From the NCBI GenBank assembly GCA_028753945.1, contig JAPNXP010000002.1, forward strand, positions 1,488,001-1,552,000: 64,000 nt of DNA, in the 5' to 3' direction. The notes below the pieces were generated by a model, which was not told the origin of the DNA, ran no database searches, and saw only the letters and a program-made list of their open reading frames with translations. The position numbers were made by a program, and so were the translations under genes. The stretch comes from Hexactinellida sp. DTS-2022 (lineage: Eukaryota; Porifera; Hexactinellida). This document shows, one piece after another, positions 14,212 to 57,442 of this stretch (positions are counted from its first letter, which is position 1; each line of letters starts with the position of its first letter).

Positions 14212-14224
14212 GAGTTATACATAT

Positions 14225-23950: not shown

Positions 23951-24790
23951 CTGCGCACCATTAACCTGTTTGGCGTACCATTAACCTGTTTGGCGTACCA
24001 TTAACCTGTTTGGCGTACCATTAACCTCTTCGGCGTACCATTAACCGCTTTGGCGTACCATTAACCTCTTTGGCGTACCATTAACCTGTTCGGCGTACCA
24101 TTAACCTCTTTGGTGTACCATTAACCTCTTTGGCGTACAATTAACCTGTTTGGCGTACCATTAACCTCTTTGGCGTTCCATTAACCTCTTTGGTGTACCA
24201 TTAACCAGTTTGGTGTACCATTAACCTCTTTGGCGTACCATTAATCTTTTCGGTGCACCATTAACCTCTTTGGCGTACCATTAACCTGTTCGGCGTACCA
24301 TTAACCTCTTTGGTGTACCATTAACCTCTTTGGTGTACCATTAACCTGTTTGGCTTACCATTAACCTGTTTGGCTTACCATTAACCTCTTTGGTGTACCA
24401 TTAACCTCTTTGGCGTACCATTAACCTGTTTGGTGTACCATTAACCTCTTTGGTGTACCATTAACCTCTTTGGTGTACCATTAACCTCTTTGGTGTACCA
24501 TTAACCTGTTTGGCGTACCATTAACCTCTTTGGCGTACCATTAACCTGTTCGGCGTACCATTAACCTCTTTGGTGTACCATTAACCTCTTTGGCGTACCA
24601 TTAACCTCTTTGGTGTACCATTAACCTGTTTGGAGTACCATTAACCTCTTTGGCGTACCATTAACCTCTTTGGTGTACCATTAACCTCTTCGGCGTACCA
24701 TTAACCTGTTCGGTGTACCATTAACCAGTTTGGTTCGGTGTACGATTAACCTGTTTGGTGTGCCATTAACCTGTTTGGTGTACCATTAAC
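23951..24790. repeat. 20-bp minisatellite, about 41 units
   Basis: Unit TTAACCTSTTYGGYGTACCA, almost perfectly phased at 20 bp; variation is concentrated at a few positions (CTCTT/CTGTT, GGCG/GGTG). A shorter continuation of three units is at 25208-25266. Confidence 0.95.
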
Positions 24791-24794
24791 CTCA

Positions 24795-32545: not shown

Positions 32546-32676
32546 ATCCTTAATTAATTACTATACAAGTTCATATATTTACTACTATACTAATAGAGGT
32601 TCCTATTTAGTGTCCTTCAGCTATTTGATATACTTATTTAGGTGTAACTTTAGATTAGAGATTGAAAGCGCTCCTG

Positions 32677-34338
32677 ATGTTAATCCAGATATTCTTCATT
32701 CTGTCTACTCTAATATTTCTGTTGCTTCTATCAGAATTCTCAAAGCTAAACATTGACAAATCAACTATTCCTTCCATAGCTCCTGTGGCTAACATCTCCT
32801 CCTACCTCTGGCCGTATCCCACGGAGGTGCAATGCAGCGATAGTGCATACTTAGTTCTTAACAATAAGGTTACTTTCATACTTAAGGACTCGGATCAATT
32901 CCCCAATGCATTCCCTATTCTAACTGATGCATTCAATGAGTACTATTCTATTATTTCCAATCTAACTAAGAGAATACCAGACAGCTCCAAGGAGACATCA
33001 AAATATTTCGTAGGCGTAAGCATTACTCAACTTAACATCACTCTGGCATCTGATGACGTCAGCTTGACATTTGACACTGTTGAGAATTATCATCTGAAAA
33101 TAGACTACCCGTTCTCCATTCTGACAGCAGGCTCTGTGTACGGAGCGTTGAGAGGAATTGAGACATTCAGTCAGCTGATCCTGGAGTATGAGAACAGTCA
33201 GCTGTTCCTGCATCAGTGCAACATAACTGATGCTCCCTTCTTCAGACACCGAGGCATTCTATACGACACTTCTCGACACTACCTGCCTGTTAGTGTACTC
33301 AAGCAGCACCTGGACATTATGGCCTGGAACAAATTCAACGTGTTCCACTGGCACATTGTGGACATACAGGCGTTCCCATACGTGAGCGAGGAGTTCCCTG
33401 AATTGAGCGCCAAAGGAGCCTACTCCCCCAGACACACCTACAACAAGTCGCAGGTCCAGGAGGTCATCAGCCACGCGAACAGGCGCGGGATTAGAGTGAT
33501 GGCGGAGTTCGACACTCCGGGGCACTCCATCTCCTGGGGGAAAGGCCAGCCGGGGCTTCTGACTGCCTGTTACAATAAAGAACAGCCAGACGGGAGCTAC
33601 GGACCTATCAATGCTATCTCGAATGTGACCTGGCCGTTCTTAAAGACTCTGTTCACGGAGATAGTCGGGGACTTTAAGGATCAGTACATACACCTGGGAG
33701 GAGATGAGGTGGACTTCTCGTGCTGGAAGTCTAACCCAGATATCCAGCAGTGGATGCAGGAGAATAGCTACACAGACTACGCTCGGTTCGAGGAGTTCTA
33801 TATCGGCAAGCTCCTCGACCTAGTGCAGCAGCTGGGCAAGAGCTATGTTGTGTGGCAGGAGGTGTTCGATAACGGAAATAAGATTAAGGAGGACACTATA
33901 ATTCACGTGTGGAAGGGGGGTAACAACTGGAAGAAGGAGATGGAGACTGTGACTAAGGCGGGGTTCCACACCCTCCTGTCTTCTTGTTGGTACCTGGACC
34001 ACATATCTTCCTCCGCAGACTACATCGGGTATTTCAGGTGCGACCCCGTAGACTTCTCTGGGACCAGTGACCAGCGGAGCCTGGTGCTGGGCGGAGAGGC
34101 GGCTATATGGGGCGAGTGGGTGGACGCGACTAACTCGCTGTCTCGCACCTGGCCTCGAGCCAGCCCCGCCGCGGAGAGACTGTGGACTGGCCCTAGCACT
34201 GTGGGTATATCCAACAGCGAGTTGTACGACAGATTGCATAAACACAGATGCAGACTGCTCAATAGAAACGTACCTGCACAGCCGCTAGGCCCTGGATTCT
34301 GTACCTATCCGTGGGTTCCTCCACAGCCTAAGTTGTGA
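32677..34338 (+). CDS. HEX: Beta-hexosaminidase (GH20)
   Basis: 553 residues from ATG 32677, intronless, close to human HEXA/HEXB length. Residues 1-20 (LIQIFFILSTLIFLLLL) form a signal peptide or anchor. A GH20 N-terminal (GH20b) region follows with YGALRGIETFSQL, then the catalytic barrel: RGILYDTSRHYLPV, NKFNVFHWHIVD, MAEFDTPGHS, the acid/base pair D343-E344 in LGGDEVDFSCW, VVWQEVFDNG and WGEWVD. It ends with the RTWPRASPAAERLW block. The family removes terminal GlcNAc/GalNAc from glycolipids and glycans in lysosomes. Potential N-glycosylation sites (NIS, NLT, NIT, NVT) are present. All catalytic residues are seen; the gene looks active. It cannot be assigned as alpha or beta subunit. Confidence 0.95.
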   Translation: MLIQIFFILSTLIFLLLLSEFSKLNIDKSTIPSIAPVANISSYLWPYPTEVQCSDSAYLVLNNKVTFILKDSDQFPNAFPILTDAFNEYYSIISNLTKRIPDSSKETSKYFVGVSITQLNITLASDDVSLTFDTVENYHLKIDYPFSILTAGSVYGALRGIETFSQLILEYENSQLFLHQCNITDAPFFRHRGILYDTSRHYLPVSVLKQHLDIMAWNKFNVFHWHIVDIQAFPYVSEEFPELSAKGAYSPRHTYNKSQVQEVISHANRRGIRVMAEFDTPGHSISWGKGQPGLLTACYNKEQPDGSYGPINAISNVTWPFLKTLFTEIVGDFKDQYIHLGGDEVDFSCWKSNPDIQQWMQENSYTDYARFEEFYIGKLLDLVQQLGKSYVVWQEVFDNGNKIKEDTIIHVWKGGNNWKKEMETVTKAGFHTLLSSCWYLDHISSSADYIGYFRCDPVDFSGTSDQRSLVLGGEAAIWGEWVDATNSLSRTWPRASPAAERLWTGPSTVGISNSELYDRLHKHRCRLLNRNVPAQPLGPGFCTYPWVPPQPKL

Positions 34339-36426
34339 CGCATTTTAATCCCCGCGATGTATATATGTACATTTATTCAAGTTATGTGTAATGCAAATTT
34401 ACTTGTTCGCCATTGCAGGATTGGAACTGAGGGGAGCTTGACCCACCTTTAGATTAATATATTTTACTCTTAAACTTATGTAAGATGTATATACGTTCCT
34501 AGTCATTAGTGATAATTATTATTTACTATTATCGTATTATGCAATGTTTCAGATGAATAGTTAAAATAGGACAATAATTATTTGATGGTTTAGTAACTAT
34601 CGCGCAAATGTTAATATATTAATCCGAACAGTCCGTTAACTAGGTTATAGGAGTTTAATCCAGGAATCCGGGATTGGAAAACCTAGCCCTACACTACTGA
34701 TAATTTGTTCGGACTAATGAATACAATTTTATATTTAGTATACAGTAGACTCTCGCTAATCCGAACAGCAGTCGATTAGTGAATTCTATAGACATCTATA
34801 CATTGAGAACCTCAAAATCCGTACAAAACTAATACAAACCTTCCTTATTAATCAGAACAAAACAATACAGTCAACTCTCGTTATATCGAAGTGCTCGGGA
34901 CCGTAGTTTCATTTCTTTATAAGCGGAGTTCGATCTTAAAAGAGTTCATTACAAGCTGAATACGTTGTAACCGGAGTTCGTTATACACGGAGTAAAATCA
35001 ATAGCTTAGAGGCTATACCTATATGGGAATAATAATTGACTCCGTTATAAGCGGAGTTTCGTTATATCCATTTCGTTGTAACCGAAGTTTTAATAATGTA
35101 ATAAGATAGAAGGATTTCCGGACCATTGAAGACTTAGTTATAACCAGGTACTTCGTTATATCCGACTTGGTTATAACGGGAGTGGACTGTAGTGTACTCT
35201 TAATTAAGATACTTGTCGATACTTAATTAAGATACTGTTTAATACTTCCATAGTAATATAAGAATACAGGGAACTCGCTCCCGTTATAAAGAAGTCGAAT
35301 ATAACGAATACCCGCTTATAATGTATTGGAGATTTCTCCCAGGGCACTAAATGCATTAATTATTATCCGCTTATAAGGCCGTATAAAATAAATACTTGTT
35401 TATCATCCCCGCCCGCCCCAATTTTTACTATCCGTCCGGATCTATTTTATTATTATCTTATGAACATAATCGTACAAAATATAAGCAATAAACTTGTGTA
35501 AAGTACCTACTATGCATAAATTTTGAATAAGTCCTTGTCCTATATTTTAGAGCATTACTTTAATTATTTGGGCATTGTCATGTTATTTTCTAATTAAATT
35601 AAATATTTATTTTTATTTTTGGCATAGGATGATGTTAGTATTTGCATATCAATGGGAATAAAAAATAAAAATAAAATCCCGTCCGCCGTCCCAATTTTCT
35701 CGAAAAATTTGGATGATAAACAAGTAATTTATTTTATGTGGCCTAACGAATATCCGGATATAATGAAGGAATTTCCAGGTCCCAAGGACTTCGTTATAAC
35801 GAGAGTTGACTGTATTTAAGATTTTTTCCACTTTTATTATAAATATATTTGTGTATTTCCCGTTCGGAACTTCGGAATGTGACATCTGCTTTTCCCTCCT
35901 GTTCGGATTAGCAAGGGTGTACTGACCAGCAGCCAGATAAAATTATTGCTCTTATCACAGGGTTCCACTCATTAACACAATGCTACACACTCCGAGGTTA
36001 TGGTTAAATATGTTTAGTGCAACTATTTCAGAAATGCTGTGAGCTTAGGTCGTTAGGGTAAGATAAACACAGTGACCATAGGTATTCATATGTTAGATAT
36101 TTGTTGTTTTGAAAAGTGCTCTAGTTATGGTGAAATGGCATTCAATTCAGTGAAGTAATTATAGAGAGAGTATTGGTAGGTATTATCTCGGCTTCGATGA
36201 ACTCTACAATAGTCAAGAATAATTGTAGGTAGTCTATTGTACGAAACAATGTGTAATATATATTTGAAATGAACTGATCTGTAATAATAATGTCATCTAA
36301 TGGTTAATGAGGGTTTTAAATAGGTTTCTAGAAGTTCTTATGGTTATTCAAGTGCAACACTGCTACGCATACCTTGATTCCACTCTTGTTATAAATACAC
36401 TTGCATAAGCTCTCGCTTAAAACGAA
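34339..36426. other. Gene-free stretch with TA-flanked MITEs
   Basis: Two CAGT-ended MITEs with CGTTATAACG-type stems, at 34868-35189 and 35267-35812, each between TA dinucleotides, plus an unpaired left end at 34740 (TACAGTAGACTCTCGCTAAT). About 600 bp directly upstream of the SAAL1-like gene look unique; no promoter element recognised. Confidence 0.65.
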
Positions 36427-37827
36427 ATGGCAGAGATATTCCGGAACCCTTCTCCTCCTGGCCAGGCTGATGCTGAGAGTGCCGAGTTGAAGCACCTGCT
36501 TGAAACGCAGGCTGATGACGTCATCACTGATACTATGTTCAGTAAATCATGGCTGATAACTACAATGAATAGAGTAGTACAGTATGTACAGAAGAGTTTA
36601 ATTCCAATTCCAATTCCTAGAATTAAATCTGTTGTTCAGAACGAACAAATAATCGTAGATCTAACTGACTCGAGTCCAGAGACAGATAGAGTTTCCTCTC
36701 CTAAGCGAGCTAAGCTTAACACTGATAGTATTCATAAGCCAACAGAAGTTATAGAACGCAGAGATAAAGAAGCTTCAAATGATGACAAAACTCGAGCCGT
36801 TAACAGCGAAGCAGAGTGCTCAAATGTCCCGGTGCCGAAAGAGAGTGCTGTCTCTCTAAGGCCCTCTGTCCTCGAGCTAGACGGGGACATAGAGAGCGAG
36901 TTTAGTACCTTGTGGGATGCCACTGTTAATCATAGAGTAGCTGCTTTCTTCAGTGAGAACAATCTGATTCCGATTATTATCCACATTGTGTGCAACTCGA
37001 GATATCCTCGTCTCAGTGAGATGTGTATGGGAGTGCTAGCAAACCTCGCGTGTACCTCTCAAGTAGCAGAGAAGGAATATTGCTCTCCACACATAGCTTG
37101 GTTTACTTGTAACATGTTAGTGTGTGACGATCCCCAGACACTAATGGAGACTCTCCGTCTCATAGAGACCTGTGTCTCCAATGAGAGTATACAGGAAGTG
37201 TGGTGTAGTGTGTTTGAGGATCAAAAAGTGGTTGATACTGTTCAGTTCATATTCGAAAGTTCTACTAATATTGAGTTGTTGTTTTCTCTGTCAAGGCTTG
37301 TTGATCTTCTCATAGATCTTTGGTCTCCACTACTGCAGAAGTTCAGCACAGTAGAAATGACTTACGCGCTCTCTGAAGCTCACAATCAAATAATGCATCT
37401 CAGCCTAGAGACAGCTGTCAACATAGTAATGATACTGCACCAGCTGTCGACAGCTGATGAAGGAGTGCAGGTGTTGCTTAAGCTTCACACTACTATTGTA
37501 GACAACTGCAGCAACCACATACTGATACTGCACGAAGAACTGGGGCCTCAGCTAGCGTTTAGCGATGCCAGCTACAAAGCTGCAGTGTCGATTCTTCTAT
37601 TTACAGTGGAAAGTTTAAAGATTAAGCTGGGTACTGTTCTAATAGAAGGGGGAAAAGATCTACGGGCAGTCTTGGTAGATATATCTCAGAAAAATGGGAA
37701 AGTTAGCAACAAAGAGAAACTCCATAGTGAGACCAAATGCAAACTAAATTCACCAGCTGTCCAGACAGAGAATCCTGAACAATTGGATCTTTTGGAGAAA
37801 ACTCACTTACTAGAACATAATATTTGA
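36427..37827 (+). CDS. SAAL1: SAAL1-like armadillo-type protein
   Basis: 466 residues, intronless. It opens with MAEIFRNPSPPG and MFSKSWLITTMNRVVQ, matching the NPSPP and YSKHWL region of vertebrate SAAL1. An acidic, low-complexity insert follows (residues about 65-155). Then DIESEFSTLWDATVNHRVAAF aligns with the SAAL1 block MENEICRVWDMSMDEDVALF, and CPRL-type SRYPRLSEMCMGVLANLAC, DPQTLMETLRLIETC and FIFESSTNIELLFSL follow in order. The fold is predicted to be helical repeats. The role of SAAL1 is poorly defined (linked to cell proliferation in mammals). The protein ends earlier than vertebrate SAAL1. Start is the first ATG. Confidence 0.82.
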   Translation: MAEIFRNPSPPGQADAESAELKHLLETQADDVITDTMFSKSWLITTMNRVVQYVQKSLIPIPIPRIKSVVQNEQIIVDLTDSSPETDRVSSPKRAKLNTDSIHKPTEVIERRDKEASNDDKTRAVNSEAECSNVPVPKESAVSLRPSVLELDGDIESEFSTLWDATVNHRVAAFFSENNLIPIIIHIVCNSRYPRLSEMCMGVLANLACTSQVAEKEYCSPHIAWFTCNMLVCDDPQTLMETLRLIETCVSNESIQEVWCSVFEDQKVVDTVQFIFESSTNIELLFSLSRLVDLLIDLWSPLLQKFSTVEMTYALSEAHNQIMHLSLETAVNIVMILHQLSTADEGVQVLLKLHTTIVDNCSNHILILHEELGPQLAFSDASYKAAVSILLFTVESLKIKLGTVLIEGGKDLRAVLVDISQKNGKVSNKEKLHSETKCKLNSPAVQTENPEQLDLLEKTHLLEHNI

Positions 37828-37922: not shown

Positions 37923-40638
37923 ACTATTATTATTAACATAATTACATTACTATTCTTCTCATTGTTTCTGAATTCGTAAAATGAATTGGTTGATCTTTGG
38001 CTATAACTTATTAGTAACTATATTATTATTACAAGCTGCTCGTCCGCGCTACGTGCGTTCTTACAACTTGCACTCGGGCCTGCGGCCCTCGCTTGTATTT
38101 ACAACACATGCCTTTTCAAATATAATCCCGGTTGTATTTAATGACATACTCCAATAGACGTAATGCAAATTGAGTAATTTATATGCAGGGCAGCCAAGAG
38201 GGGGGGGGGGGGGGGCAGGGGGGACAGTTGCCCCGGGGCCCGTGGGTCTAGGAGGGCAGTAAAAATTCCTAAACAAAGTTATTAGTTTAAGAATGTAAGC
38301 ATAATGTTACCGCCAAATGCTGCCTTCAGATAATAAAATTGAATGATATATAGTTAACTTAAACTTTAATTATAAAGAGATAAGGAAATCGTGTAAAATG
38401 AACATTTGGGTTTGGGAAAGGTTCCAGAGGGGCTTGTCAATGGAAATTGATCTCCGAAAAAACTGGTCCTAAGACCATTTTTCCTGGAATTTTGTTCCAG
38501 GATCAATTTTTTGGGCCCAATTTTCCAGTGACAGGCTTATTCATAAAAATTTTTGGGTCTGGCGAAAAATCGCCTAGCCTACTATTCTAGTAAATACGGT
38601 AACTAAATAAACACAAACCTCAGAAGGACCAATTTTCCACAGAAGGACCAGATTTCCATGAAAATTTTGGTCCCCCCGGACCAATTTCCCAAGGGGACCA
38701 AATTTTCCGTGACAGGCCCATCATTATTGTTTGCCCTGGGGCACGAAAAACCTCTCGGCGGTCCTGTTTATATGCATGATTGAGCTCAAACTGAATCTAG
38801 GTGCCTATTAAAAAAAACTGTCGGTTATGTAACGAAAAATTAACAAAAATTATATACTCCCTCCCTACATCACTCTTTTGCCATTTTGTAATAAAAAGGA
38901 CGGGCTGTAACACTTAGCCCTTGAGCATTACTTAATATTCTAAGGCCCTATACACAGGTTGATTATATACGGGGAAACATTTGGGTAATATTTAGGTGAC
39001 CGCTAGTGACCGACAAAACAGTAATGCTATTGTTTCAGAGCTGTATATTTATATCCGTGGGCCCTAGCCATAGGTATATACGTATAAGGACAGAGCAAAT
39101 ATATGGGCAAATACTAATCAGAGTATTAATATTTATGCTAATTAGAACTGATAATTTTCTAGATATCAAAGCTTGTCTGTGTATAATAATATACCAACTC
39201 CAAATAGAAAATTAAATATCACTAAGGAACTGTACAACTCTGTGGACCCCTGACTTTGGGCTATTATTGATTTAAATAGTTGGATCAAATAGACACAATG
39301 GAATATTAGAAATGTATGGTTAGACGACGGAACACATTAACTGATTGGATGAATGAACTTCCTCTCGACCAATTAAATTACAGTCTCAGCTGCTAATCCA
39401 TACTGGAAACTCTCGAATTTAATTGGCTAAAGTTTTGGCACCTTTTGAGAGGGAAGATGTAAGTATTTTTCCTAGATATTAGAACTTGTTCCTAGATACA
39501 CTTACCAGTTCCTCAATCAATTCCGAAAAAAACAAATCATTGTGAATTAATATTTAAGATTATATACTTCAAGTTAGGACTTCTGAAATTCTGTATTTGC
39601 TAATAGCAATAGTTCAACACGTACTTTAATGTGGTTTAATATGGTTTGCAATCTTAATTAAGTTACGAATATATCAGTTATACAGTAGTTATAATAATTA
39701 TACAAATAAGGACCTTACCATTTGGCAATGCTGGATTCGGTTAACGTTACTTCAAGATTTTATAAATCAGTTAACCGTTTTGAAATATGCTGTGATATTA
39801 TTAATGTTTGCGTTATGAGAAAAATTATCTGGTGTCTCTTGTTATAATCCAATGATTATTCCCATCGTCGCGTCACATGGTAGATTTCAGTGATACATTG
39901 TTTTAAGTTATCTGGAAATAAGAAATTAATTGACTGATTTAAAAAGATGGCCTTGATTAGAGAAGAATCTCTAAAGCCCACCATACATGATGCTACAAAG
40001 TTGCATCGTGTACACATATTGGAATGTTACATGCAATTTTGTTGCATAAAACAATGTTGCATCATGTATTATGATCGTTCCATGCAACATTGTTACACCT
40101 TGTATGTTACCTGCAACAGTTGCATAAGAACGGTCAAGAATACATACTTATCATGTTAGATACGAAAAGTCGTAATAGAAATTCATAAAACGAGGATTTT
40201 ATTTTATTTAAAGCATCCAAAATTCCTTGCACTCTTTATGTTGCAACAATACAGCACATCAACTAAGTTTACTATATTAATGCAATTATATATTAATTAA
40301 TGTAATGGACACAAAATCACACAAATATGTAAATGTAGTATGTATTACGTAGAATCCAAATGTATTAGATACGCTATAAAAATGCAAATTTACAATATTT
40401 AATGCGATTATTAATAAATTAATGCAATAGACACACAATCACACAAATGTATTAGATAGTACTATAAAATGCAAATTTGCAATATATAATACAATTAAAG
40501 CAATAAACACATGCATACACAAAATGGTTTACAGTCAACATATAGATACCTATAAAATACAAACTATTTTAATTGAGTTTATATTTCACAAGCACATAGA
40601 AATTCATTGGTTATAAAATCATTTTCTCCTTTTAAGCT
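37919..40638. other. Gene-free stretch upstream of the RdRP fusion gene
   Basis: Contains a repeat at 38034-38965 sharing its two ends (CTGCTCGTCCGCG... GGCCTGCGGCCCTCGCTTGTA and ATACACAGGTTGATTATA) with 58768-59045. A Ginger-like short element is inserted near 38436-38535 (TGTCACTGG / CCATTGACA ends, AGCC flanks), followed by a second GGACC-rich unit to 38715. 39985-40130 is a cluster of GTTGCATG/CATGCAAC words. The last 450 bases are AT-rich. No promoter motif is recognised. Confidence 0.6.
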
Positions 40639-43600
40639 ATGAACTGTAGAAAGTGTGGGACTGAATTGCTACCTCTTGAGGATATCTGCTTCTATGCCAA
40701 AAGCATTAAGTCCGTAGACCTCATGATTCGACACGAGAAAGCTGCGCTGTTGGAAGACAAATTCAAATTAACTCCCGACAAACCCAAATATTTCAATATA
40801 ATTTGTACAAACTGTGACTCCCCTGTCGGTAAGAAGCACCCACACGGTCCCAGCTCGTCGAGCATACTAGCTTTTGGGAACGACAAGATAGTCCTGCTCG
40901 GCCGGAGCTTAACTGGTTCCAAGAAAGACGCCTGGTACAACGTGTACTTGGAGCCCCCATTCGATGGCCTGCTGGTCCGAGACTCCGCCTCATTCTTCGG
41001 AATTTCACAGGCTAAGAATCCGGACGCACCAGCGCCACAGTTTGAGATGTGTCCCATCGTCTGGCCCGACCCCCAAGACCTGTCTCACTTTAAGCACGAT
41101 GACATCATTATGTCTGACGTCATCCCCAGGGACTACCAGATAGCAGCCTACATCGAGGCGCTGCAGAGAGACCTCATCCTGGTGCTGCCCACCGGATGCG
41201 GCAAGACGCTGGTGGCTAGCATCGCCGCCGCCCGCATGAAGATCCTGAACCCCGGACACATGGTGCTGTTCCTGGTGGACAGGATTCCCCTGGTGTTCCA
41301 GCAGGGAGAATCTATCAGCATCGAGACACACCTCAATGTCTGTTCTCTCACGAGCGAGTTCAACACTAATCTCAAGCGCCGGAAGCTGACACAGGGGGTG
41401 TACGACTTGTTGGTGTCCACTGCTGGCTCTTTCGTATCTCTCAAAGGTTACTTGTCCATTGACAGATTCTGTTACGTCATATTTGACGAGTGCCACCACG
41501 CTACGAAGCAACACGATTACAAGGTTATACTGGAGCAGATCAAAGAGTGTCCTCCTCCCAACCGCCCGCGGGTCCTGGGTCTCACGGCGTCCCCTCCCTG
41601 CTCCCAGGATCTCTTGGAAAAGTTCCGACACTCTTTCTTCGACGCCCCCATCTGCCACGACCTGTCTCTCTCGGACTACGAGTACGCCTCGGCTTCTGTC
41701 GACACGGAGCTGGTGCTGGAGCCTGTCTGGGAGCTGAGGGAGTACAAAATGTGTATGGAAGCAGAGCTGTACAAACTGGCTGACGAGATTAATGCGATAC
41801 TTGGTAGCAAAGAACTCTCGAAGGGTGAGTGGGGGAAGAACAGAGACCAGCTGATGACCGCCTTGTTTGAACTGGACAGCAGGAAGGAAGAGGGAGTGCA
41901 AACGCGTGTTGAAGCTATTAAGAAGATATGCGAGGTGCTGGCTAATACAGAAGTACTAGGGATAACGTATGACAACGATAAGTTGGAGGATCTTGCCGTG
42001 TACCGGGATCTAGAGCACAGAGACACGTTCTCTCCCGAGCTAAATGCTCTGTTTAAGATTCTGAAAGATTTGCCAGATGACTCAAAGATAATAATATTCG
42101 TCCGCACACGGGTTATAGCTCACATCCTGAATGACATCCTGAAGAGAGACGCGGCCATCAGCAGGAGGTTCTCTCCGCAGAAGATAGTTGGGCAGTACGG
42201 CCTGTTCGGGATGAGCTGGATAAACGAGCAGGAGGAGGTGCTTGAGAAGTTCCGAAACGGTCCCTGCAGCCTCCTGGTGAGCACCTCAGTGCTGGAGGAG
42301 GGCCTAGACATTCCAACTTGTGACGTAGTCATCCGACTCGGCCGCATCAACTCTTTTATTTCTTACAAGCAGAGCAAGGGCAGGGCAAGGAAGAAGGACA
42401 AGTGTAAGTTCATTCTGATTATGTCGAAGGAGGACGAGGAAGGTTTCGCGGATATTCTCGCGCAAGAGGCCGAGGTTAAGAAGCTGCTGAGAGACCACTT
42501 CTCAGCTGACCCGGTCCCCTCTGCCACCACCCTGCAGCTGCAGGAGCAGGTGAAGGCAGACATGGTCATTTCCCCGCGAAACACGGAGCCTCTGCTGAAC
42601 AGTGCGGAATGCGCAGTGGAATTCTATTTCTCCACCTACCTGGAACTATTTAACGTCCGAGACGCTATAGCCGAGTTCCTCAGAGATGACTTCTATCTAA
42701 AAGTAAACCTTATAGACCAAGCTAGAGACAGCTCTGTGTGGAATCGCAAGGGAATATTCCCGCCTGAGGACTCCCTCCTCATCCTGGGCCTAGGGACGCA
42801 GCACAGGAACATATACCAGAGATACAAACAGCTGACTGTGGAGTGGTCCTTCTCCTTCCTCAAGGACACCACCAGTGTATGGACCCGAGTGCAGTTGCCC
42901 ACCGGCCAGTCTGCCACTATAGTGACAACCTGGGAAGTCACCAAACTTTCCCTGGGCAGCTTCATAGACAGACGGAGGTTCCAGTTCTGTAAAGAGCTCG
43001 AAGCAGCAGCGGAAGATACTGAGGATGACACAATAGGAAGGTTGGAGTTAATATCGAAGAAGAGCATCGAGATAACCGTATTCAATAGTGTTCTCCTTAT
43101 AGAGATTCCTTTGACCTCTATCCGTCGGTTCGCATTATGCCATTGGAAGGATAGCGAAGTGACGCTGTACCTGCCCCTTAGCTACAGTCCCACTATACGT
43201 GCCAATCACGAAGGCCCTCGTCTCTCCTGCAATGAGTGCGAGCTCTTAACCCACTTCGGGAAACATCCTGTGCTTTCTGTCACACTAAAGTATGATAAAG
43301 CCGATTGGAGTGAGCTCTGGATATTCCTGCATTCGTCCTATTTCCCTGTCCCAGTGTTCGACTCGCACGTCACCATATGCTCCCCTCCGGACCCTGCAGT
43401 GTCCTTGGAACATCCTGACTATTGGGCGAAACCCGTCCAGGACTGTTTGTGGTTATTCTATGTGCTCAAGGCCAACAGAGATATATGCATACCCGACTCA
43501 ACTATTCGCTACCTTTCCCATGAAATATCCCAAACACCAGTAGAGCACATGCACAGGCTACAGAAGACGTTCGGAGACTTGCTATCAGAGCTGCCCAAGG

Positions 43601-46600
43601 GCAAGACCGTATACTTCTGCGACTTACTAACTTCGTTCAGAGACAGACAGGAGAGGAATTCTAAGAGCACCAGAGAGCCTATAGGGCCCCCGAGCAACTT
43701 CTGTCACGTGGAGTGTGCCATGCTAACTCCCTCCCGCATAATCCCCCTACACCCAATCTTGACTCAGTGCAACAGACTGTACAGGAAGTACCCGCAGGAG
43801 CGGTTCCTTAACCTGGCCTTCCGAGAGGAGCACGCGGAGGCGCTGAACTGCAGCGAGGTCCTCGAGCGAGTTAGGACCCCCCTCCAGACAGGCATCGACA
43901 TAGAAGGAATCAAGTTCTACTTCCTGGTGTGTAGCGGCAGTCAGATGAGAAGCAAGCGGGCTATTTTCTTGCATATACCGGACTCGGACTCTCCATCTCC
44001 GGCCGATAGGATCAGGTGTATGAGAGCAGAGCTAATCGGGGACTCTGTTATTACTAACGTCACCAAGTACATCTCCAGACTGGGTCTGTTCTGCACCTCC
44101 GACTACCCCATCTGCGAGATAGACGAGGCTAGCACTCTACAGCTGGAGGACATCAAGGCTGGCAACGATGTTATGCTTACTGACGGCAATGGCAAGATTG
44201 ACAGGAATGTCGCCGAAACCGTCTTCGAGAAGTATAATCTGAAACAGACTTCTTCCAACACTTCTGCTCTTCAGATCCGCCTGGCTGGACTGAAGGGCGT
44301 TTTCACCATAGTGGACCCCAGGACAGACCCCGACTTCTCCGCCGCCGCCGCTGCGGGACAGCACTGCTCCATCATATACCGGGAGTCCATGAAGAAGATA
44401 CAGTGGACGCACTCCATGCTGTGTCTCGTTAAAGTAGGCAAATACAACAAACTGTTCTTCAACACGCAGATGCTGACTCTCCTCTCGAGTCTGGAGGACA
44501 GAGCTCAGCAGTGGGACCCGAAGCCGAGACTGAGAGAACTCTACAAAAACACTCTTGAAGACTTTGCCCAGTTATTCAAGGATGAACATAAAGCTAATTC
44601 CAAGCTCATGTCTCACCTTCCTAACTATTCCAACCGCACACCATCGCACTTCGATATTCTCTCAGAGCCGTTCCTGTTGTCTCTTCTCCGGTGCGTCTAC
44701 ACACACGACATCAAGATGCTAATCAACAGGTTCCATTTCCAGGTGGGAGAAGGGTGTATTCTGATGGGAATCCCGGACCCTATAGGCGTGCTGAAGGATG
44801 GAGAGGTGTTTATTCGGTATGAAGACGCTAAGGGTGTTATTGTAGTAAGGACAGGACGCATACTGGTGTACAAAAACCCCTGTCTGCATCCCGGAGACCT
44901 GCTGGTGCCACTTGCCGTGGACAAACCGGAGCTGAGCCATCTGCACAACGTTATCGTGTTCCCCATTACTGGCGAAAAGTCCATCCCGGCCTGCTCCGGG
45001 GGCGGGGATCTGGACGGAGATGAGTTCGGGATTATTTGGGACGAGGCGCTAATCCCCCCTGAGGGCGCCGTGTTCGAATCTCTAAACTACGACAAGGTGC
45101 TGGAGAATTACAAAGCCGGACTTCAGGAAGATGAGACTGAGGAACAGCCTGCAGTTACTATCGACAGGCCAATACATAATGTTGAGAATGTGCAGATACT
45201 ACTAGCTGAAGCCTACTGCAAGATAGTATCCAATGACTTGCTTGGTATCATATCGCATTACCACGTGGCTGTTAGCGATATGAAGCCAGACGGAGCCAGG
45301 GACGATCTGGCTATCCAGCTGGCCAAACTAGCTTCCATCGCTGTGGACTCTCCTAAGACAGGAGTAACCCCAGTAATACCACACGACATAAAGACTTTAA
45401 TCAAGGATAAGGGATACCCGGACTTTATGGAGAAGTTCCTATCTACTTCTTATCCGTCTACCAAACTGCTAGGGGAGCTGTACCAAATGGCTAAGTCCGT
45501 CTGCTTCGAGTCCAGCGAGTGGGAGAATGTACTTAATTATTATGAAAAGCACGAGTTTCTCCACAGAATACCACCTAACATACCGCCAACGGTATTTGAA
45601 ATTCAAGGCTACGAGGAGTACATGGACAGCGCAAGAGATGTATATTTTGAATACGGTAGTGCGCTCCAGAGGATAATGCTGGCGTTCGGGATCGAGACAG
45701 AGGCGGAGGTTGTCCTGAGTCTTATAATCAGGTGTCACCCTCTCCTGTCGGCCGACAAGGGCAAGACCACGAGTGCACTGAGGGCCGCAGCGCAGCATCT
45801 CTCGCAAGAGTTCAGGCACACATTCCACAGAGACACTGCTAGCAGCCAATACCTCAAGAAAGCAGCCGCCTGGTATCTCACTGTCTACCAACAACAGCAA
45901 AGCCAAAATGGGATATTTCTCTCATTCCCATGGTTAGTAGGAGAATACCTATGCGACATTATGGCCTCGCAGAAATTTCATACGAAAATTGACATGTACA
46001 CAACAGTAGGAAGGTCAGCGAGGGAATACTTGAAGTGCAAGTACGATTCAATTCGTAATGTAGTGGAATCAAAGATCGGACTTTTGCCCTTGATTGAGGC
46101 GACCATCAATTCAACAGCTAAGCTGATGCTCCCATCTACTTCTCCTACACAGCTTATTACATCCACTGATCCTCCACAAATCCTCCCATCTACTGATGCT
46201 ACACAACTAATCACATCTACTGATGCTACACAACTTATTACATCTACTGCTGCTACACAACTTATTACATCTACTGATGCTACACAACTTATCACATCTA
46301 CTGATGCTACACAACTTATTACATCTACTGCTGCTACACAACTAATCACATCTACTGATGCTACACAACTTATCACATCTACTGATGCTACACAACTTAT
46401 TACATCTACTGATGCTACACAACTTATTACATCTACTGATGCTACACAACTTATCACATCTACTGATGCTACACAACTAATCACATCTACTGATGCTACA
46501 CAACTTATCACATCTACTGATGCTACACAACTTATTACATCTACTGATGCTACACAACTTATCACATCTACTGATGCTACACAACTTATTACATCTACTG

Positions 46601-48993
46601 ATGCTACACAACTTATCACATCTACTGATGCTATACATATTCCTGTATATACTGACGCTATTGGAGACGTTGGTAATACAGAACATGCACAAATTACTGT
46701 ATCCACCGGTGCTAACGGGAATGTTAGTGGTACAGAGATTCAGCGGATATTCAATGTAGAAGCATTCGGCTCTGTAGCGAAGTATCACTGTGAGCTGCAG
46801 TCGGATTTGGACATTTCTGTTTCGCTGACAGACTATGGATATAGTTTGCATAATCGTCCAACAGATATCAGGGAACTGCTCCTAATAAGGAGACGGATCT
46901 ACATCCTGAAAACTTTCATCTCCCCTTCCCTCGGAGACATAGTAAACGATAAGAACGATAAATACAACTTGGAGGTGCCCATGGTGTCGTGTCACATGGA
47001 CTCAAAAAACGAGTGCTCTTCTAATATCAGTGTTGATGTTACGGTGGAGAGTGATGGTGTTCTCAAGTGCAACCACATTCTACAACTCTACAGCCGTACC
47101 AAAGGAATGTTCTTTGCGTTGCTATGGATATTGATTCACTGGGCTAGACATGTGGGAATACTGAAGAGCTACACCTCCCCTGACAGCTCAGGCTTAATAC
47201 TAACCGCGGAGTTCGAAGCTTTAGTACTGCATATCTATGAAAACATGAAGAATGTGCCTAAAACAGCTCCAGGCGATGAGATAGACAGCTCATTCGCTTC
47301 CATGTTCAATTCTCTGTCGTGTGCAGACATGGAGAGGTCCCTGGGATTGGTGTTGGAGGAATTCTTTTCCTTGGGTTACAAAATAACATCAGAAGATGTT
47401 ACTCAAATTGAGTACACCTGGCCGATAGAAGGAAAGCCGACTCATACCATTGACCGCGTGGCCCTGAGTAAGATATCCGGCCTCTTATTCCAAGGCTGGC
47501 ATTGCCTTGTGTTCACCAGGGACATTTCTAAGCTGCTAGAACGCGTAGATATACAGTTGAAGTTTGCCAAGAGATTCTCAACGTACTTGAGTGACAGACT
47601 TAGGTCTTCCACTCAGTACTACGAGAAGGATTTGACTAATAAGACTGGCTGTATCGTAAGGCTGGAGGAGATGGGTAGAAACATCTTGCTGACTGCCCAG
47701 GGATCTGCGAGTGGTATCCATAAACTGTCAGCTGAGGTCTCCCTCATAGAGTCTAGCTCCGCTCTAACCAAGAGATACAGGTCGAATGCTAGTCGCTACA
47801 TGATAGACGGTAACCTAGCGCTGGTGCTATCGAATAATCTGACAGACTCTAAGGTTAAGCTTAAGCCATTCAGACACGGCTGTTGCAAACACTTCCACAG
47901 CGTTAACAACAAATGCGTGTTGGTATCTGCCATCACCAAGCCGAATCCACATTGGATTAAAGAAGGAACACTCAAGCTAGAGAATCTGCTCTGGACACAA
48001 CTCAAGAGCTTCCCTGTCAAGAACAACCATTTTCTAGCAAATTTAAAATTCAAGACAAGATTCGGCTTCTTCTACGTCCTCGAAGGAGTAGACGCTCTCA
48101 AGAGTATTGGGAATTCTGTTAATGTGGAGGAGTTTGAATCCTGCTTAGTGAAGGGAAAGACAAATCGCAGGAGTGAGACAATTCCGGAGAAGATTGAACT
48201 CCGGTCTATAGACTCAGATAAAACCGAAAAAAAGCCACCCTCAAAGATGACCAAAGATGCTCAATATCTCTCAGCTAAGAAGCACCGAGATAAGATAGAG
48301 TCTCTGAGCAGTGGGTTCTGTCCTGGCATATACGACATACGCAACATGGAGGATCTGGAGACATCAAAAGATGTGTTCATACGGTCTCTGGAGCAGTGTA
48401 ACTTCAAGCCCATAGACAAAAAGATACCCTACACATGGAGAGTAGAGATAGAGGTAAGCTTCACTGTTGACGTCAGACTCAACCTGGATTCCAGCTTCCA
48501 TGTGGTGGACATATCCAGCCGGCCTTATATTTGGGTGTTGGCTACAATTCTAGCCGACAGAAATAAAGTTGACGAACGGAAAGCTCACGATCTGAGGCTC
48601 CGGGCAGAGACCTCCGAGCCAGTGGAAGAGGAGTCTGAGTTGTACAGTAATATTCTGCCAGATGGACTTGTATCTACCGTTATTGAGTTTAACGATAAAG
48701 GAAAGCCAGTCCCCTGTGAGCGGCTGAAGGATAGGATGAAGATTATTAAGCACAACCATGAGGTTGTCTACTACCAGCTTGACAGTGTCGTGGCTAAGAT
48801 GTGCTCTGGCACGGAGTACTGTAGGGAGAACTACGACTTTGGAAGACAGTTCTGTGAGTTGACTCTATTTCACTGTGAATCTGAGCTTATTGAAAGCGTA
48901 GCTTCAGGAAGCAGCTCTGAGATTCGAGCTATTGCAGTTACTGCAGTAGAGACTTCCATCAAGCTTTCAGAAGCTATTTCCAGGAATATGTAA
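40639..48993 (+). CDS. Helicase-RdRP-nucleotidyltransferase fusion protein
   Basis: 2784 residues in one exon. Residues 1-130: Zn-binding RIG-I C-terminal-domain-like region (CRKC at 3-6, CTNC near 55, LEPPFDGL). About 165-600: DExH/D helicase of the Dicer/RIG-I class with Walker A PTGCGKT (184-190), DECH (283-286), GLTASPP and QSKGRAR (579-585). About 1020-1640: eukaryotic RdRP with VECAMLTPSRIIPLH, LTDGNGKID, QIRLAGLKGVF and the catalytic DLDGD (1457-1461, three Asp) in CSGGGDLDGDEFG. About 1830-2000: 9-residue Thr/Ser repeats. About 2035-2230: Cid1/TUTase-type nucleotidyltransferase with FGS (2043-2045), Asp 2056 and 2058 in SDLDIS, and third Asp 2133 in VDVTVE. Residues 2300-2784: no recognised domain. 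Known roles: such enzymes make and tail secondary siRNAs; in S. pombe they are separate RDRC subunits. Combined role is inferred. GC is well above the flanks. An AATAAA lies at 49247. Confidence 0.93.
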   Translation: MNCRKCGTELLPLEDICFYAKSIKSVDLMIRHEKAALLEDKFKLTPDKPKYFNIICTNCDSPVGKKHPHGPSSSSILAFGNDKIVLLGRSLTGSKKDAWYNVYLEPPFDGLLVRDSASFFGISQAKNPDAPAPQFEMCPIVWPDPQDLSHFKHDDIIMSDVIPRDYQIAAYIEALQRDLILVLPTGCGKTLVASIAAARMKILNPGHMVLFLVDRIPLVFQQGESISIETHLNVCSLTSEFNTNLKRRKLTQGVYDLLVSTAGSFVSLKGYLSIDRFCYVIFDECHHATKQHDYKVILEQIKECPPPNRPRVLGLTASPPCSQDLLEKFRHSFFDAPICHDLSLSDYEYASASVDTELVLEPVWELREYKMCMEAELYKLADEINAILGSKELSKGEWGKNRDQLMTALFELDSRKEEGVQTRVEAIKKICEVLANTEVLGITYDNDKLEDLAVYRDLEHRDTFSPELNALFKILKDLPDDSKIIIFVRTRVIAHILNDILKRDAAISRRFSPQKIVGQYGLFGMSWINEQEEVLEKFRNGPCSLLVSTSVLEEGLDIPTCDVVIRLGRINSFISYKQSKGRARKKDKCKFILIMSKEDEEGFADILAQEAEVKKLLRDHFSADPVPSATTLQLQEQVKADMVISPRNTEPLLNSAECAVEFYFSTYLELFNVRDAIAEFLRDDFYLKVNLIDQARDSSVWNRKGIFPPEDSLLILGLGTQHRNIYQRYKQLTVEWSFSFLKDTTSVWTRVQLPTGQSATIVTTWEVTKLSLGSFIDRRRFQFCKELEAAAEDTEDDTIGRLELISKKSIEITVFNSVLLIEIPLTSIRRFALCHWKDSEVTLYLPLSYSPTIRANHEGPRLSCNECELLTHFGKHPVLSVTLKYDKADWSELWIFLHSSYFPVPVFDSHVTICSPPDPAVSLEHPDYWAKPVQDCLWLFYVLKANRDICIPDSTIRYLSHEISQTPVEHMHRLQKTFGDLLSELPKGKTVYFCDLLTSFRDRQERNSKSTREPIGPPSNFCHVECAMLTPSRIIPLHPILTQCNRLYRKYPQERFLNLAFREEHAEALNCSEVLERVRTPLQTGIDIEGIKFYFLVCSGSQMRSKRAIFLHIPDSDSPSPADRIRCMRAELIGDSVITNVTKYISRLGLFCTSDYPICEIDEASTLQLEDIKAGNDVMLTDGNGKIDRNVAETVFEKYNLKQTSSNTSALQIRLAGLKGVFTIVDPRTDPDFSAAAAAGQHCSIIYRESMKKIQWTHSMLCLVKVGKYNKLFFNTQMLTLLSSLEDRAQQWDPKPRLRELYKNTLEDFAQLFKDEHKANSKLMSHLPNYSNRTPSHFDILSEPFLLSLLRCVYTHDIKMLINRFHFQVGEGCILMGIPDPIGVLKDGEVFIRYEDAKGVIVVRTGRILVYKNPCLHPGDLLVPLAVDKPELSHLHNVIVFPITGEKSIPACSGGGDLDGDEFGIIWDEALIPPEGAVFESLNYDKVLENYKAGLQEDETEEQPAVTIDRPIHNVENVQILLAEAYCKIVSNDLLGIISHYHVAVSDMKPDGARDDLAIQLAKLASIAVDSPKTGVTPVIPHDIKTLIKDKGYPDFMEKFLSTSYPSTKLLGELYQMAKSVCFESSEWENVLNYYEKHEFLHRIPPNIPPTVFEIQGYEEYMDSARDVYFEYGSALQRIMLAFGIETEAEVVLSLIIRCHPLLSADKGKTTSALRAAAQHLSQEFRHTFHRDTASSQYLKKAAAWYLTVYQQQQSQNGIFLSFPWLVGEYLCDIMASQKFHTKIDMYTTVGRSAREYLKCKYDSIRNVVESKIGLLPLIEATINSTAKLMLPSTSPTQLITSTDPPQILPSTDATQLITSTDATQLITSTAATQLITSTDATQLITSTDATQLITSTAATQLITSTDATQLITSTDATQLITSTDATQLITSTDATQLITSTDATQLITSTDATQLITSTDATQLITSTDATQLITSTDATQLITSTDATQLITSTDAIHIPVYTDAIGDVGNTEHAQITVSTGANGNVSGTEIQRIFNVEAFGSVAKYHCELQSDLDISVSLTDYGYSLHNRPTDIRELLLIRRRIYILKTFISPSLGDIVNDKNDKYNLEVPMVSCHMDSKNECSSNISVDVTVESDGVLKCNHILQLYSRTKGMFFALLWILIHWARHVGILKSYTSPDSSGLILTAEFEALVLHIYENMKNVPKTAPGDEIDSSFASMFNSLSCADMERSLGLVLEEFFSLGYKITSEDVTQIEYTWPIEGKPTHTIDRVALSKISGLLFQGWHCLVFTRDISKLLERVDIQLKFAKRFSTYLSDRLRSSTQYYEKDLTNKTGCIVRLEEMGRNILLTAQGSASGIHKLSAEVSLIESSSALTKRYRSNASRYMIDGNLALVLSNNLTDSKVKLKPFRHGCCKHFHSVNNKCVLVSAITKPNPHWIKEGTLKLENLLWTQLKSFPVKNNHFLANLKFKTRFGFFYVLEGVDALKSIGNSVNVEEFESCLVKGKTNRRSETIPEKIELRSIDSDKTEKKPPSKMTKDAQYLSAKKHRDKIESLSSGFCPGIYDIRNMEDLETSKDVFIRSLEQCNFKPIDKKIPYTWRVEIEVSFTVDVRLNLDSSFHVVDISSRPYIWVLATILADRNKVDERKAHDLRLRAETSEPVEEESELYSNILPDGLVSTVIEFNDKGKPVPCERLKDRMKIIKHNHEVVYYQLDSVVAKMCSGTEYCRENYDFGRQFCELTLFHCESELIESVASGSSSEIRAIAVTAVETSIKLSEAISRNM
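46135..46635 (+). repeat. 27-bp coding tandem repeat in the fusion gene
   Basis: About 16 units of 27 bp encoding TQLITSTDA, with occasional AA for DA and synonymous ATT/ATC changes. In frame throughout; a likely flexible linker between the RdRP and the nucleotidyltransferase and a candidate site of length polymorphism. Confidence 0.97.
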
Positions 48994-49345
48994 TATATTC
49001 TATTTCACAAATAGTTATACTTACTCAGTAGGCATCTTATGGGATATCACATCTATCATTTTGCATCTATTGTTATTTGTAAATACGTAGGTTTCTAGTT
49101 TGTGAATTTATTTATTAGCATTTTCTATTATATTATGTTCATTGGCTAAATGAAAACTCTGTTGCTTTGAATTTCTACTTTAGATAAGGACACTGGACAC
49201 ATACTCCATGCCAAAATGAACTCTTGACGAGCTCTCCATAATTCGCAATAAAGGATATTATATGTACGTACTTTTAGATAATATGACAATACATGGCATT
49301 GCATATGCATAATTCATTTATTATACAATTAATGCAAGCGAACCT
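48994..49345. other. 3' flank of the fusion gene
   Basis: AATAAA at 49247-49252 is the best candidate polyadenylation signal, about 255 bases after the stop. No other feature. Confidence 0.45.
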
Positions 49346-49673
49346 TAATAAGGGTCGCCGGAATATGTCTGAATTTTAAGTATGAAGATGTTCGAAAACT
49401 TATGAAGTAGGAATAAGTCCGAATATATTTCTGATGTAGGAATAAGATCGAAAGGCCTGTAAGTAGGAATAAGTTCGAATATATTTTTGAAGTAGGAATA
49501 AGTTCGAAAACTTATGAAGTAGGAATAAGTCCGAATATATTTCTGATGTATAAGTTCGAAAGACCTCCAAGTAGGAATAAGTTCGAAAGACCTCCAAGTA
49601 GGAATAAGTTCGAATCCCTATTAATTTAGATTAACCCAGAAAACCCATGCATGAATTATCAGATTTAGAAGTA

Positions 49674-51430: not shown

Positions 51431-51890
51431 TTTCGAACATATTCCTACTTGCATCGAACTTATTCCTACTTCATAAGTTTTCGAACTTATTCTTACTTAC
51501 AGGCCTTTCGAACTTACTTAGGGTGACCAGAGGATTTTGGGGCAAAACCTGGACATTTCTCAAAATTTCGACAAAATCCGGGACAATCCTGGACACAGGT
51601 TATAAAAAACTGGACACTATTAGTTTAATGCGAACGAATTGGAGACAATTGGATGATAATAAAAAATAACTGCAAAAAAGACCTGGACAATTTAGAAAAT
51701 TACAGGACATCGCACGATAATTATAAAAAAACTGTATACTGCCCAGGCTAAAAATTGGGGAGTATGACATTTGTGTACATAGCTAGTGCGACGTTTGTGT
51801 ACAAATAATATTCATAAATTAGCTTTAATTAAGAATAGTACATAAATAATCTGTCATAAGTAAATTCTTTCGCATCGTTTGTTGTCAATA

Positions 51891-53800
51891 ATGGACTATT
51901 TGTCTATATCATGGAACTTATTTTTGGAGAACAAATGGATTCCTCTTCATGGAATTGCACTCGCGAAATCTCTTAATAACAGTTTTAACGTGGTATCAGA
52001 GCTCATAGATATACCAATAGAAGTGTTGATAGCCATTGTTTTTCCATTTCGAAATCCCGAGGATACTTTCAGACAAATGTCACTAGGACTAGATGATACG
52101 TTTGTTACTCTGGGAAAACCTAATTTGAAAGTTGCATACAAAGTAAAACTGATTACTCAAAGTTTAAAGGTGGCAGTGATGAATTGGGGAGATACTCAAG
52201 AATTTAGCGGACTCTTAACTTGGACAGGTACAAATGAAGATGACATCACTTTCATCAATAGTTCCGAAGTATTTGAGAAGCTTTCAGATTTCCACAATTA
52301 TTGCCATGGTAGACAGCAACAGATGGAATCGCTAAACAGAGAGGCTACAGAGAACGCAATACAATTGCAAAGTGCATTAGCTGATATGGATGATGTACTC
52401 ACGGCGCCCACGGATAGTTCTATCTTTTTATCTGAGGTTGACCCACTACAAGAAGATACCAACTCAACATTAGACCATTCTAGCGAAGCAATTGGAGATC
52501 TATCTGCACATGCACAAGATCTAGATTTTAAATTGATAAAGTCATCCAGATCGCGGGATAAATTATCATATTGTGGCTATATCTACAATTTTCAGCGTGC
52601 AACAAAGGCTAAACAACAATGGCGCTGTCAGGTGAAGAATTGCTAAGGCCGTATTCACACAACTGCGACAACTGTCATAAAACTAATAGGCCAACATTGC
52701 CATGGCGAAGAGATTGGTAAAGAAGAAGTTTTGGAATTTCGTGCAAGAGTAAAGAGACGTGCCCTAGAATCGCATGATAACCCTCATCGCATTATTGCAG
52801 AAGCGTCAGGACAACTTTCTAACATTGCTAAAACACTTCTACCACGTGAAAAAAGTTTAAAAAAGATTTGTCAAAGAATTAGACCTGCGCCAACAAATCC
52901 TACCACTCTTTTTGATCTCCACTTTGATGAAAATATCCAAACTTTAGGTGGAAATAACTTTTTAGCCTATGATTCTGGACCAGGATTAGACAGAATTATC
53001 ATGTTTTCCACTGAAGAAAACAAGAAAATTCTATCCTATTCTACAATATGGATGGCAGACGGAACATTTAAAGTTGTCCCTAGCCTATTCGTACAACTTT
53101 ACACGGTCCATGCGCTAGTTGGAGGAACTTACCCTTTCAGAGATGGACATTTGCTTCCTTCTATTTACATATTAATGCCAGGAAAGAGCTCTTCCTATTT
53201 ATATATCGCAAAATGTGGCACATTATTCAACAGTTGTGTCCAGGTTCTAATCCACAATTTCTTTTAGTTGATTTCGAAAAAGCCGCAATCAGCACATTTG
53301 CAGAAGTTTGGCCAAGGGCAAACATTAAAGGTTGCTTCTTCCATCTATCACAATCCGTTTATCGAAAGGTCCAGGATCTAGGATTGAAAACAATCTATTC
53401 TAATAATACAGAATTCTCAATCAATGTTAGAATGTTACCAGCTTTGGCTTATCTACCTTCCCAATTTGTTTTAACAGCTTTTGAAACCCTAAAAAGTCAA
53501 CTTCCGCCTGAAGCACTAGGTGTATATAATTACTTTCGAGATATTTATGTTGGAGAAATTGATGAATTTGGGGTTTACCATCCACCTTTATTTCCAATTG
53601 AAATGTGGAACAATTTTGATTTAGTGGCTTACGGAATACCTACCACTACGAATTCAGTAGAAGCCTGGCACCGCGCCTTTTCGACAACCGTCGCATCACA
53701 TCACCCTACCTTTTGGAAATTTTGTGATGCACTTAAGATTGAGCAATCTAGTGTAGAACTTAGGCAAGCTCAATATTATTCTGGAATAGTCCCCGACTAA
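51891..53800 (+). pseudogene. MULE transposase with FLYWCH finger (one stop, one frameshift)
   Basis: ATG 51891 opens about 215 residues of unrecognised sequence (SISWNLFLENKWIPLHG, RNPEDTFRQMSLGLDD), then a FLYWCH/WRKY-like zinc finger (DKLSYCGYIYNFQRA, WRCQVKNC, then a TAA at 52644, then GRIHTT, HCHG). The MULE DDE domain follows: first Asp in MADGTFKVVP, second Asp in FLLVDFEKAAI, CFFHLSQ helix, and Glu in NSVEAWHRAF. The second Asp is reached only after a one-base frameshift near 53210. With these two lesions the copy is probably inactive, but all three catalytic residues survive. It ends GIVPD, stop 53800. The copy at 3-725 is a relative. Function if active: cut-and-paste transposition. 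Confidence 0.82.
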
Positions 53801-56755: not shown

Positions 56756-56905
56756 CCTAAACTTATTCCTCGGACTTATTCCTAATTCATAAGTTTTCGA
56801 ACTTATTCCTACTCGCAGGGGTTTCGATCTTATTCCTACTTTATTTTCGGATTAATTCCTACTTAAATTTTCGAACTTATTCCGCATCCCCCTTAATAAC
56901 TATTT

Positions 56906-57442
56906 TAATATTTAACTTAACTTAATATATTGATTAATTAAGGATGAATCCCTAGTAAATATTAGACTCAAATTGATATTGCTTCTTATTCCTCTTATTT
57001 GTACCCATAAAAAAAGTCATAATATTGTCGAGTTACATTCTGACACGCCTGAATTTTGTACTAAAACCCTAATTTATACCATACTAAGCGTATGGCATGC
57101 CTTATACTTCCTGATGCCAAGTCTGTTCTTATTGAAAACACTTGTTCTAATTACAGTAGTAGCATATATTATCATTTTCGTGTCATTGAATTTGCCTTAG
57201 AAGACATTAATTATTTTGATGAAAAGACAGTTGCAGAATTATTTTCGAATTGAATTGAGATACACCCACCATTTGCTCCCACGTACACACTTGTGCTAGG
57301 TATAAAGCATCACCTGACAGTAGGTATATGCAATATAACATTACTCCATAGAAAGATTGTAATGACCACAATAGTTATCTCTAATCAACAGACTATATTA
57401 TCTGATTAGAATAGTAACTATATTCACCACAGTTAGTATAGT
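56906..57442. other. 5' region of YAP
   Basis: AT-rich, no repeat end and no recognisable promoter element. Upstream non-coding exons of YAP cannot be excluded. Confidence 0.45.

Follow-up and report, generated by a model that had tools for sequence, protein, structure and literature searches.

Can the helicase, the RNA-dependent RNA polymerase (RdRP) and the terminal nucleotidyltransferase that meet in RNA silencing be encoded by an animal as one protein, and if so, what would such a chain do? The window (the whole 64,000-nucleotide stretch of DNA that was analysed) raises this question through a single open reading frame at 40639-48993 on the forward strand. It begins with ATG and continues for 2784 codons with no internal stop. 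A sequence-only reading had described the frame as uninterrupted and had placed the three enzymes in it in that order, and Pfam, the motif positions and a profile built from five enzymes all agree with it. Each of the motifs that it named (PTGCGKT, DECH, QSKGRAR, DLDGD, FGS, DLD and a third Asp) was found where it had been claimed. The encoded protein of 2784 aa has the order helicase, RdRP, repeat, nucleotidyltransferase. Under a model of independent and identically distributed bases, the log10 chance of an open frame of 2784 codons is about -61, while a run of 784 codons with the composition found in the protein's last part comes to about -21. We rejected a chance ORF.

Helicase and polymerase domains

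Residues 163-583 (41125-42387, forward strand) were identified as a Dicer-type SF2 helicase using Pfam, a phmmer search of the PDB and motif positions. The Pfam families ResIII (residues 163-319), DEAD (166-320) and Helicase_C (471-583) all match far above their cut-offs, and the motifs PTGCGKT, DECH and QSKGRAR lie at residues 184-190, 283-286 and 578-584. The best solved-structure match in phmmer is AncD1D2 (3.5e-44), which aligns in both halves of the helicase. Next come DHX58/LGP2 (1.3e-31) and Dicers, among them Dicer homolog 1 (1.3e-30), and RIG-I and MDA5 chains also match. Going by its name, we take AncD1D2 to be a reconstructed Dicer helicase. On these matches, the predicted helicase is a member of the Dicer/RIG-I class of SF2. 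Neither a PAZ nor an RNase III domain was among the six Pfam families matched at E up to 1 or among the matches to fragments, and we therefore rejected the identification of this protein as a Dicer, for which PAZ and paired RNase III domains were sought. NCBIfam returned 22 families for the whole protein, none of which reached its cut-off; all were helicase or nuclease/restriction types on the helicase part, save YdhT on the repeat. Ahead of the helicase, Pfam and a motif scan point to a possible zinc module of the form CxxC...CxxC (residues 3-6 and 56-59; 40645-40815, forward strand), which is weakly Yippee/Mis18-like (E=0.013, 16.1 bits versus a cut-off of 26.6). The N-terminus matched one unrelated protein only in a phmmer search of the PDB (0.096), and its structure prediction from the single sequence had a mean pLDDT of 32. 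We also considered whether this Cys module might be a C-terminal domain of the RIG-I type, an identity that had no Pfam support and that we rejected.

The cellular RdRP domain (PF05183) spans residues 1029-1617 (43723-45489, forward strand) and was recovered by both Pfam and PDB matches, with an E-value of 5e-113, far above the Pfam cut-off, and with profile positions 1-581 of 582 covered. Its catalytic DLDGD, located by a motif scan and by alignment to RDR2, is at residues 1457-1461 (45007-45021, forward strand) within GGDLDGDEF (1455-1463). By these matches the predicted domain is complete and cellular, of the RNAi type, with DxDGD intact. The closest solved chains are those of RNA-dependent RNA polymerase 2 (RDR2; 1.4e-53), which are presumably from plants, whereas QDE-1-type chains are far weaker matches (7.4e-11). 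If RDR2 and QDE-1 are taken, as we assume, as reference points for the RDR-alpha and RDR-gamma subclasses, this contrast in similarity scores points to a polymerase that is nearer RDR2 than QDE-1, and so away from the RDR-gamma of the known fusions. Past the domain, residues 1617-1830 have a weak Pfam match to SF3b10 (0.0028).

The nucleotidyltransferase domain

The profile searches that had been proposed as a check on the sequence-only reading gave matches far above the cut-offs for ResIII, DEAD, Helicase_C and the RdRP, but just under the cut-off for the nucleotidyltransferase. This third part, Cid1/MTPAP-like by Pfam, by its motifs and by the five-enzyme profile, occupies residues ~2040-2300 (46756-47538, forward strand), with a Pfam match to the palm at residues 2038-2153 and a probable central helical part reaching to about residue 2300. 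FGS is at residues 2043-2045, SDLD at 2055-2058 (DLD at 2056-2058) and the third Asp at 2133 in SVDVTV. The Pfam family MTPAP-like_central matched the whole protein with E=1e-4 (22.8 bits versus a cut-off of 27) and fragments with 1.2e-5 and 6.8e-6 (25.9 and 26.7 bits versus the same cut-off), the best match lying 0.3 bits under the cut-off, while three decoys gave no families. Weak Pfam matches were also seen to Polbeta on FGS/DLD (0.05-0.15) and to DUF5601 (0.11-0.19), and on the nucleotidyltransferase fragment NCBIfam gave the MntA type alone (E=0.062). No PAP-associated domain (PAP_assoc) was matched in the Pfam searches of fragments, and plain phmmer of this part against the PDB returned an acylphosphatase only (E=1.2) and no nucleotidyltransferase. 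The structure prediction from the single sequence had a mean pLDDT of 34.

A profile that combined five enzymes of solved structure (Trf4, URT1, Cid1, an MTPAP chain and TUT1) gave a clearer result. HMMER scored the fragment at 18.4 against this profile, the best of 1000 shuffles reaching 8.2, and hhalign gave it 40.2 (E=4.4e-5, 69% probability), with none of 200 shuffles exceeding 23.8. The sequence-only reading had staked this part of its claim on profile searches, and here the fragment outscored every shuffle in both programs. An earlier three-sequence profile had been weak, with a score of 22.6 against a maximum of 20.9 among 100 shuffles and a probability of 4%, and the signal became clearer when two longer enzymes were added to it. 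The hhalign alignment extends from FGS across 189 columns at 11% identity, with FGS, DLD and the third Asp in register. When the whole protein was compared with the five-enzyme profile, the top-scoring windows were those overlapping the fragment, and the HMMER alignment covered residues 2112-2181 only, without FGS/DLD. We consider it likely from these comparisons that the GS...DxD...D palm of a Cid1/TENT-like terminal nucleotidyltransferase is present.

The earlier claim that all catalytic residues survive stands for the GS and Asp motifs but not for a K/R in the helix of the (H/C)WA motif (KHWAK-type helix), which is found in five of five reference nucleotidyltransferases and is Ile in the fusion protein according to the profile alignment. 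This K/R presumably contacts the nucleotide, and its replacement by Ile makes tailing activity uncertain. Three of the solved chains read Ala at the third Asp position, which we take to be an engineered change. Compared with Cid1, MTPAP and TUT1, the fusion shares FGS, DxD, the third Asp and the order of palm elements in the profile alignment, but differs in its low identity, in its Ile and in the far larger chain to which the domain belongs. It could be, then, that this is one protein of the known two-part helicase-RdRP kind, to which a catalytically dead or feeble nucleotidyltransferase contributes a scaffold or a module for binding RNA 3' ends, as the Ile, the divergence over 189 columns and the Pfam match under its cut-off would suggest. 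We regard this as unlikely, as FGS, DxD and the third Asp are all rightly placed, which would be unexpected if the domain were long dead. For the C-terminal 454 residues that follow (47629-48990, forward strand), a Pfam search with residues 2330-2784 gave no family even with the E-value limit set at 10. The sequence-only reading had passed over these residues, as it had the N-terminal Cys module and the repeat between the RdRP and the nucleotidyltransferase.

Known RdRP assemblies and a possible role in silencing

Fusions of a helicase to an RdRP have been reported in Dictyostelium, peronosporomycete oomycetes, Hydra and Nematostella and were placed in RDR-gamma (PMC4791657). Dictyostelium alone had been named as precedent by the sequence-only reading, which was correct but too narrow. 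As in those fusions, an N-terminal DEAD-type helicase with Helicase_C is followed by a cellular RdRP in one chain, and on this arrangement the predicted protein fits the family; the differences are that its RdRP is nearer RDR2 than QDE-1 and that a third enzyme has been added. Another animal RdRP that is fused to a further domain is amphioxus BL02069, whose AAA_12 is presumably of a helicase type, but not of the Dicer type. The word “nucleotidyltransferase” is absent from the main text of the paper reporting AAA_12 in BL02069 (PMC6396948), as it is from that of the paper describing the helicase-RdRP fusions (PMC4791657).

Closer functional parallels are found where the same activities are carried by separate proteins. 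In C. elegans, the Dicer-related helicase DRH-3, the RdRP EGO-1 and the terminal nucleotidyltransferases CDE-1 or MUT-2 (RDE-3) take part in linked steps (PMC6351104, PMC7988573); CDE-1 interacts with EGO-1 and uridylates EGO-1 siRNAs, and the UG tails made by MUT-2 recruit RdRP (PMC7988573). Unlike the fusion, these parts are separate proteins, and the complex of DRH-3 with EGO-1 also includes the Tudor protein EKL-1, to which we recognised nothing equivalent in the fusion. The S. pombe RDRC (Rdp1-Hrr1-Cid12) likewise brings together an RdRP, a helicase and a transferase of the Cid type. ZNFX-1, the protein to which Hrr1 is orthologous, is an SF1 helicase. RDRC differs from the fusion in having separate subunits and in that Hrr1, whose partners are the RdRP and Cid12, is a ZNFX-1 orthologue and not Dicer-class (PMC9276528), while Pfam matched the helicase of the fusion to ResIII/DEAD/Helicase_C and not to an Hrr1/ZNFX1 type. 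Because Hrr1 is of another helicase family, it is in role that the helicase subunit corresponds to RDRC, and DRH-3 is a better analogue than Hrr1, which the sequence-only reading had wrongly named as the S. pombe counterpart. One Tetrahymena RdRP reportedly also assembles with nucleotidyl transferase subunits.

Drawing on these systems, we think it reasonably probable that the protein is a single-chain RdRP complex that would feed, copy and tail RNA for silencing. Its Dicer-type helicase would engage or translocate on template RNA, and its RDR-type polymerase, judging from the intact domain, would copy the template to yield antisense RNA or dsRNA. The Cid1/MTPAP-like domain would add untemplated 3' nucleotides, with the repeat linker allowing it to reach RNA ends handled by the polymerase. 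The tail might mark the template for polymerase start, as with the UG tails of nematode MUT-2/RDE-3, or it might go on the products and limit them, as with CDE-1 and EGO-1; by analogy with MUT-2 we slightly favour tailing of templates rather than products. A genuine three-part protein could also act outside RNAi, for example in innate sensing, where its RIG-I/Dicer-like helicase would capture viral RNA and the RNA would then be copied or tailed, either as a mark or to strengthen a signal. The matches of the helicase to DHX58/LGP2 (1.3e-31), RIG-I and MDA5 chains would be consistent with this, and a non-RNAi role has been speculated for amphioxus RdRPs (PMC6396948), so silencing does not automatically follow from the presence of an RdRP in an animal. 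Nevertheless, RNAi amplification is given in the same paper as the sole known function of eukaryotic RdRPs (PMC6396948), and no CARD or other signalling domain is among the Pfam matches, which leaves such a sensor a rather improbable explanation.

No description of a helicase-RdRP-nucleotidyltransferase chain was among the matches listed in our full-text literature searches, in line with what the sequence-only reading had said of it; most subscription journals are outside these searches, so its absence from print is weakly supported. The whole protein retrieved one stretch from viral_contigs (viral DNA), and an alignment of the RdRP core retrieved 38 from the same collection and 200 from genome_contigs (prokaryotic DNA), with no relatives among any of them. 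As these collections are described as viral and prokaryotic, the missing relatives say little about animals. Helicase-RdRP fusions having already been reported, the nucleotidyltransferase alone appears to be new.

Gene structure and biological meaning

The RdRP and the nucleotidyltransferase are joined by a 27-bp minisatellite of 18.7 copies (46133-46637, forward strand; residues ~1832-2000), found by a tandem-repeat scan, which is in frame and encodes Thr/Ser-rich TSTDATQLI repeats. Where units differ, the change is most often silent (CTT/CTA, ATT/ATC). GAT has become GCT in two of the 19 listed nine-codon units, and the edge units are more divergent. Such a tandem array is a likely site of collapse or mis-join, and the two enzymes could therefore belong to separate genes or transcripts that seem continuous because of the minisatellite, a start at Met1830 or mis-assembly at the repeat. 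Met1830 is at the start of the array, and a GC3 of 0.62 across the RdRP part gives way to 0.51-0.53 past the array. Against this, GC3 in 150-codon blocks before the array already spans 0.51 to 0.75, and the frame is intact on both sides and through the ~19 units, whose commonest variants are at silent third positions. Searched at up to 3 mismatches, the 27-bp unit had 16 matches in the window, all within the array and none elsewhere.

Neither a polyadenylation signal nor a strict-consensus splice site separates the two parts. A motif scan found no A[AT]TAAA between the start codon at 40639 and 47955, two farther along the ORF (47956 and 48562) and a candidate AATAAA signal at 49247-49252 (forward strand), ~250 bp past the stop; scans limited to the strict splice consensus gave no donor at 45901-46800 and no acceptor at 45901-47000. 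After Met1830 the next in-frame Met is only at residue 2115, past FGS/DLD, so FGS/DLD could not be made from a Met start within the nucleotidyltransferase, and translation of a nucleotidyltransferase that has them would have to begin no later than the first units of the array. Codon usage in the nucleotidyltransferase and C-terminus has a correlation of 0.83 with that of the helicase-to-RdRP part in frame; the two remaining forward frames, with 52 and 65 stops, reach 0.65 and 0.43. GC is 0.43-0.52 across 40001-48000, above most of the window. Two genes are, in our judgement, a decidedly unlikely explanation, and we infer expression as one protein. In the sequence-only reading, enzymatic activity, a 1:1:1 assembly of the parts, one transcript and an output of siRNAs are likewise inferences. 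A recently dead gene that is still open by chance is very improbable given 2784 codons without a stop and retention of the motifs searched for. At the other end of the gene, a pyrimidine-rich run ending in AG directly 5' of the ATG (40620-40636, forward strand), noted by eye, may be a 3' splice site, and an upstream exon, either 5' non-coding or adding coding sequence, is thus possible.

No second copy of the protein was found elsewhere in the 64-kb window at E up to 1. A GH20 hexosaminidase ORF at 32659-34335 is closest to beta-hexosaminidase alpha and beta chains (9.6e-151 for 2gjx), which we take to be human, and its codon usage has a correlation of 0.91 with that of the helicase-to-RdRP part, compared with a lower 0.56 for the ORF at 36427-37824. 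A WW-domain ORF matches NEDD4-like, ITCH, WWP1 and YAP1 entries. We recognised ORFs that are presumably SAAL1-like (36421-37827), caprin-like (1700-3262) and YAP-like (57437-61907), the first two having no Pfam family above its cut-off. On the whole, the neighbouring ORFs look animal-like in their sequences, and the host is probably an animal.

Several other elements were observed in the window. ORFs at 11965-14674, where Pfam matched an integrase core (rve, 1e-15) together with an OTU protease (1.8e-8), are mobile-element remains, and downstream of the gene, ORFs at 51864-53800 have a MULE transposase domain (1.1e-7) and a FLYWCH zinc finger whose match (7e-5) falls slightly short of the cut-off. 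The ORFs at 5977-6567 and 20170-20580 are alike by eye, Ulp1-protease-like and likely transposon-derived, the former having PHD and Peptidase_C48 Pfam matches below the cut-off. A Type III hammerhead ribozyme at 22680-22733 on the reverse strand (49.1 bits versus a gathering score of 48.5) is possibly that of a retroelement, and a 20-bp satellite array of ~42 copies lies at 23953-24793. Related tandem repeats with AGTAGGAATAAGTTCGA-like units are present on both strands at 49378-49614, 51454-51516 and 56770-56883, near or downstream of the gene.

The three-part order is known from one locus. Three demosponges have been reported to lack an RdRP (PMC6211395, PMC4752309), and one RdRp has been reported in Halichondria (PMC6085071). 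Our fullest interpretation, that a silencing complex has been welded into one animal protein with all three parts active and the nucleotidyltransferase on an expandable repeat tether, is one that we hold to be evenly balanced. Fission yeast and nematodes bring tailing enzymes together with RdRPs, but as long as the subunits are separate and exchangeable it is difficult to determine whether both enzymes act on one RNA end within a single reaction. A natural fusion, if true, would have its partners fixed, would argue for their direct association and would provide a single protein for biochemistry, and, as the known occurrence of RdRPs outside nematodes is patchy, it may contribute a further animal lineage.
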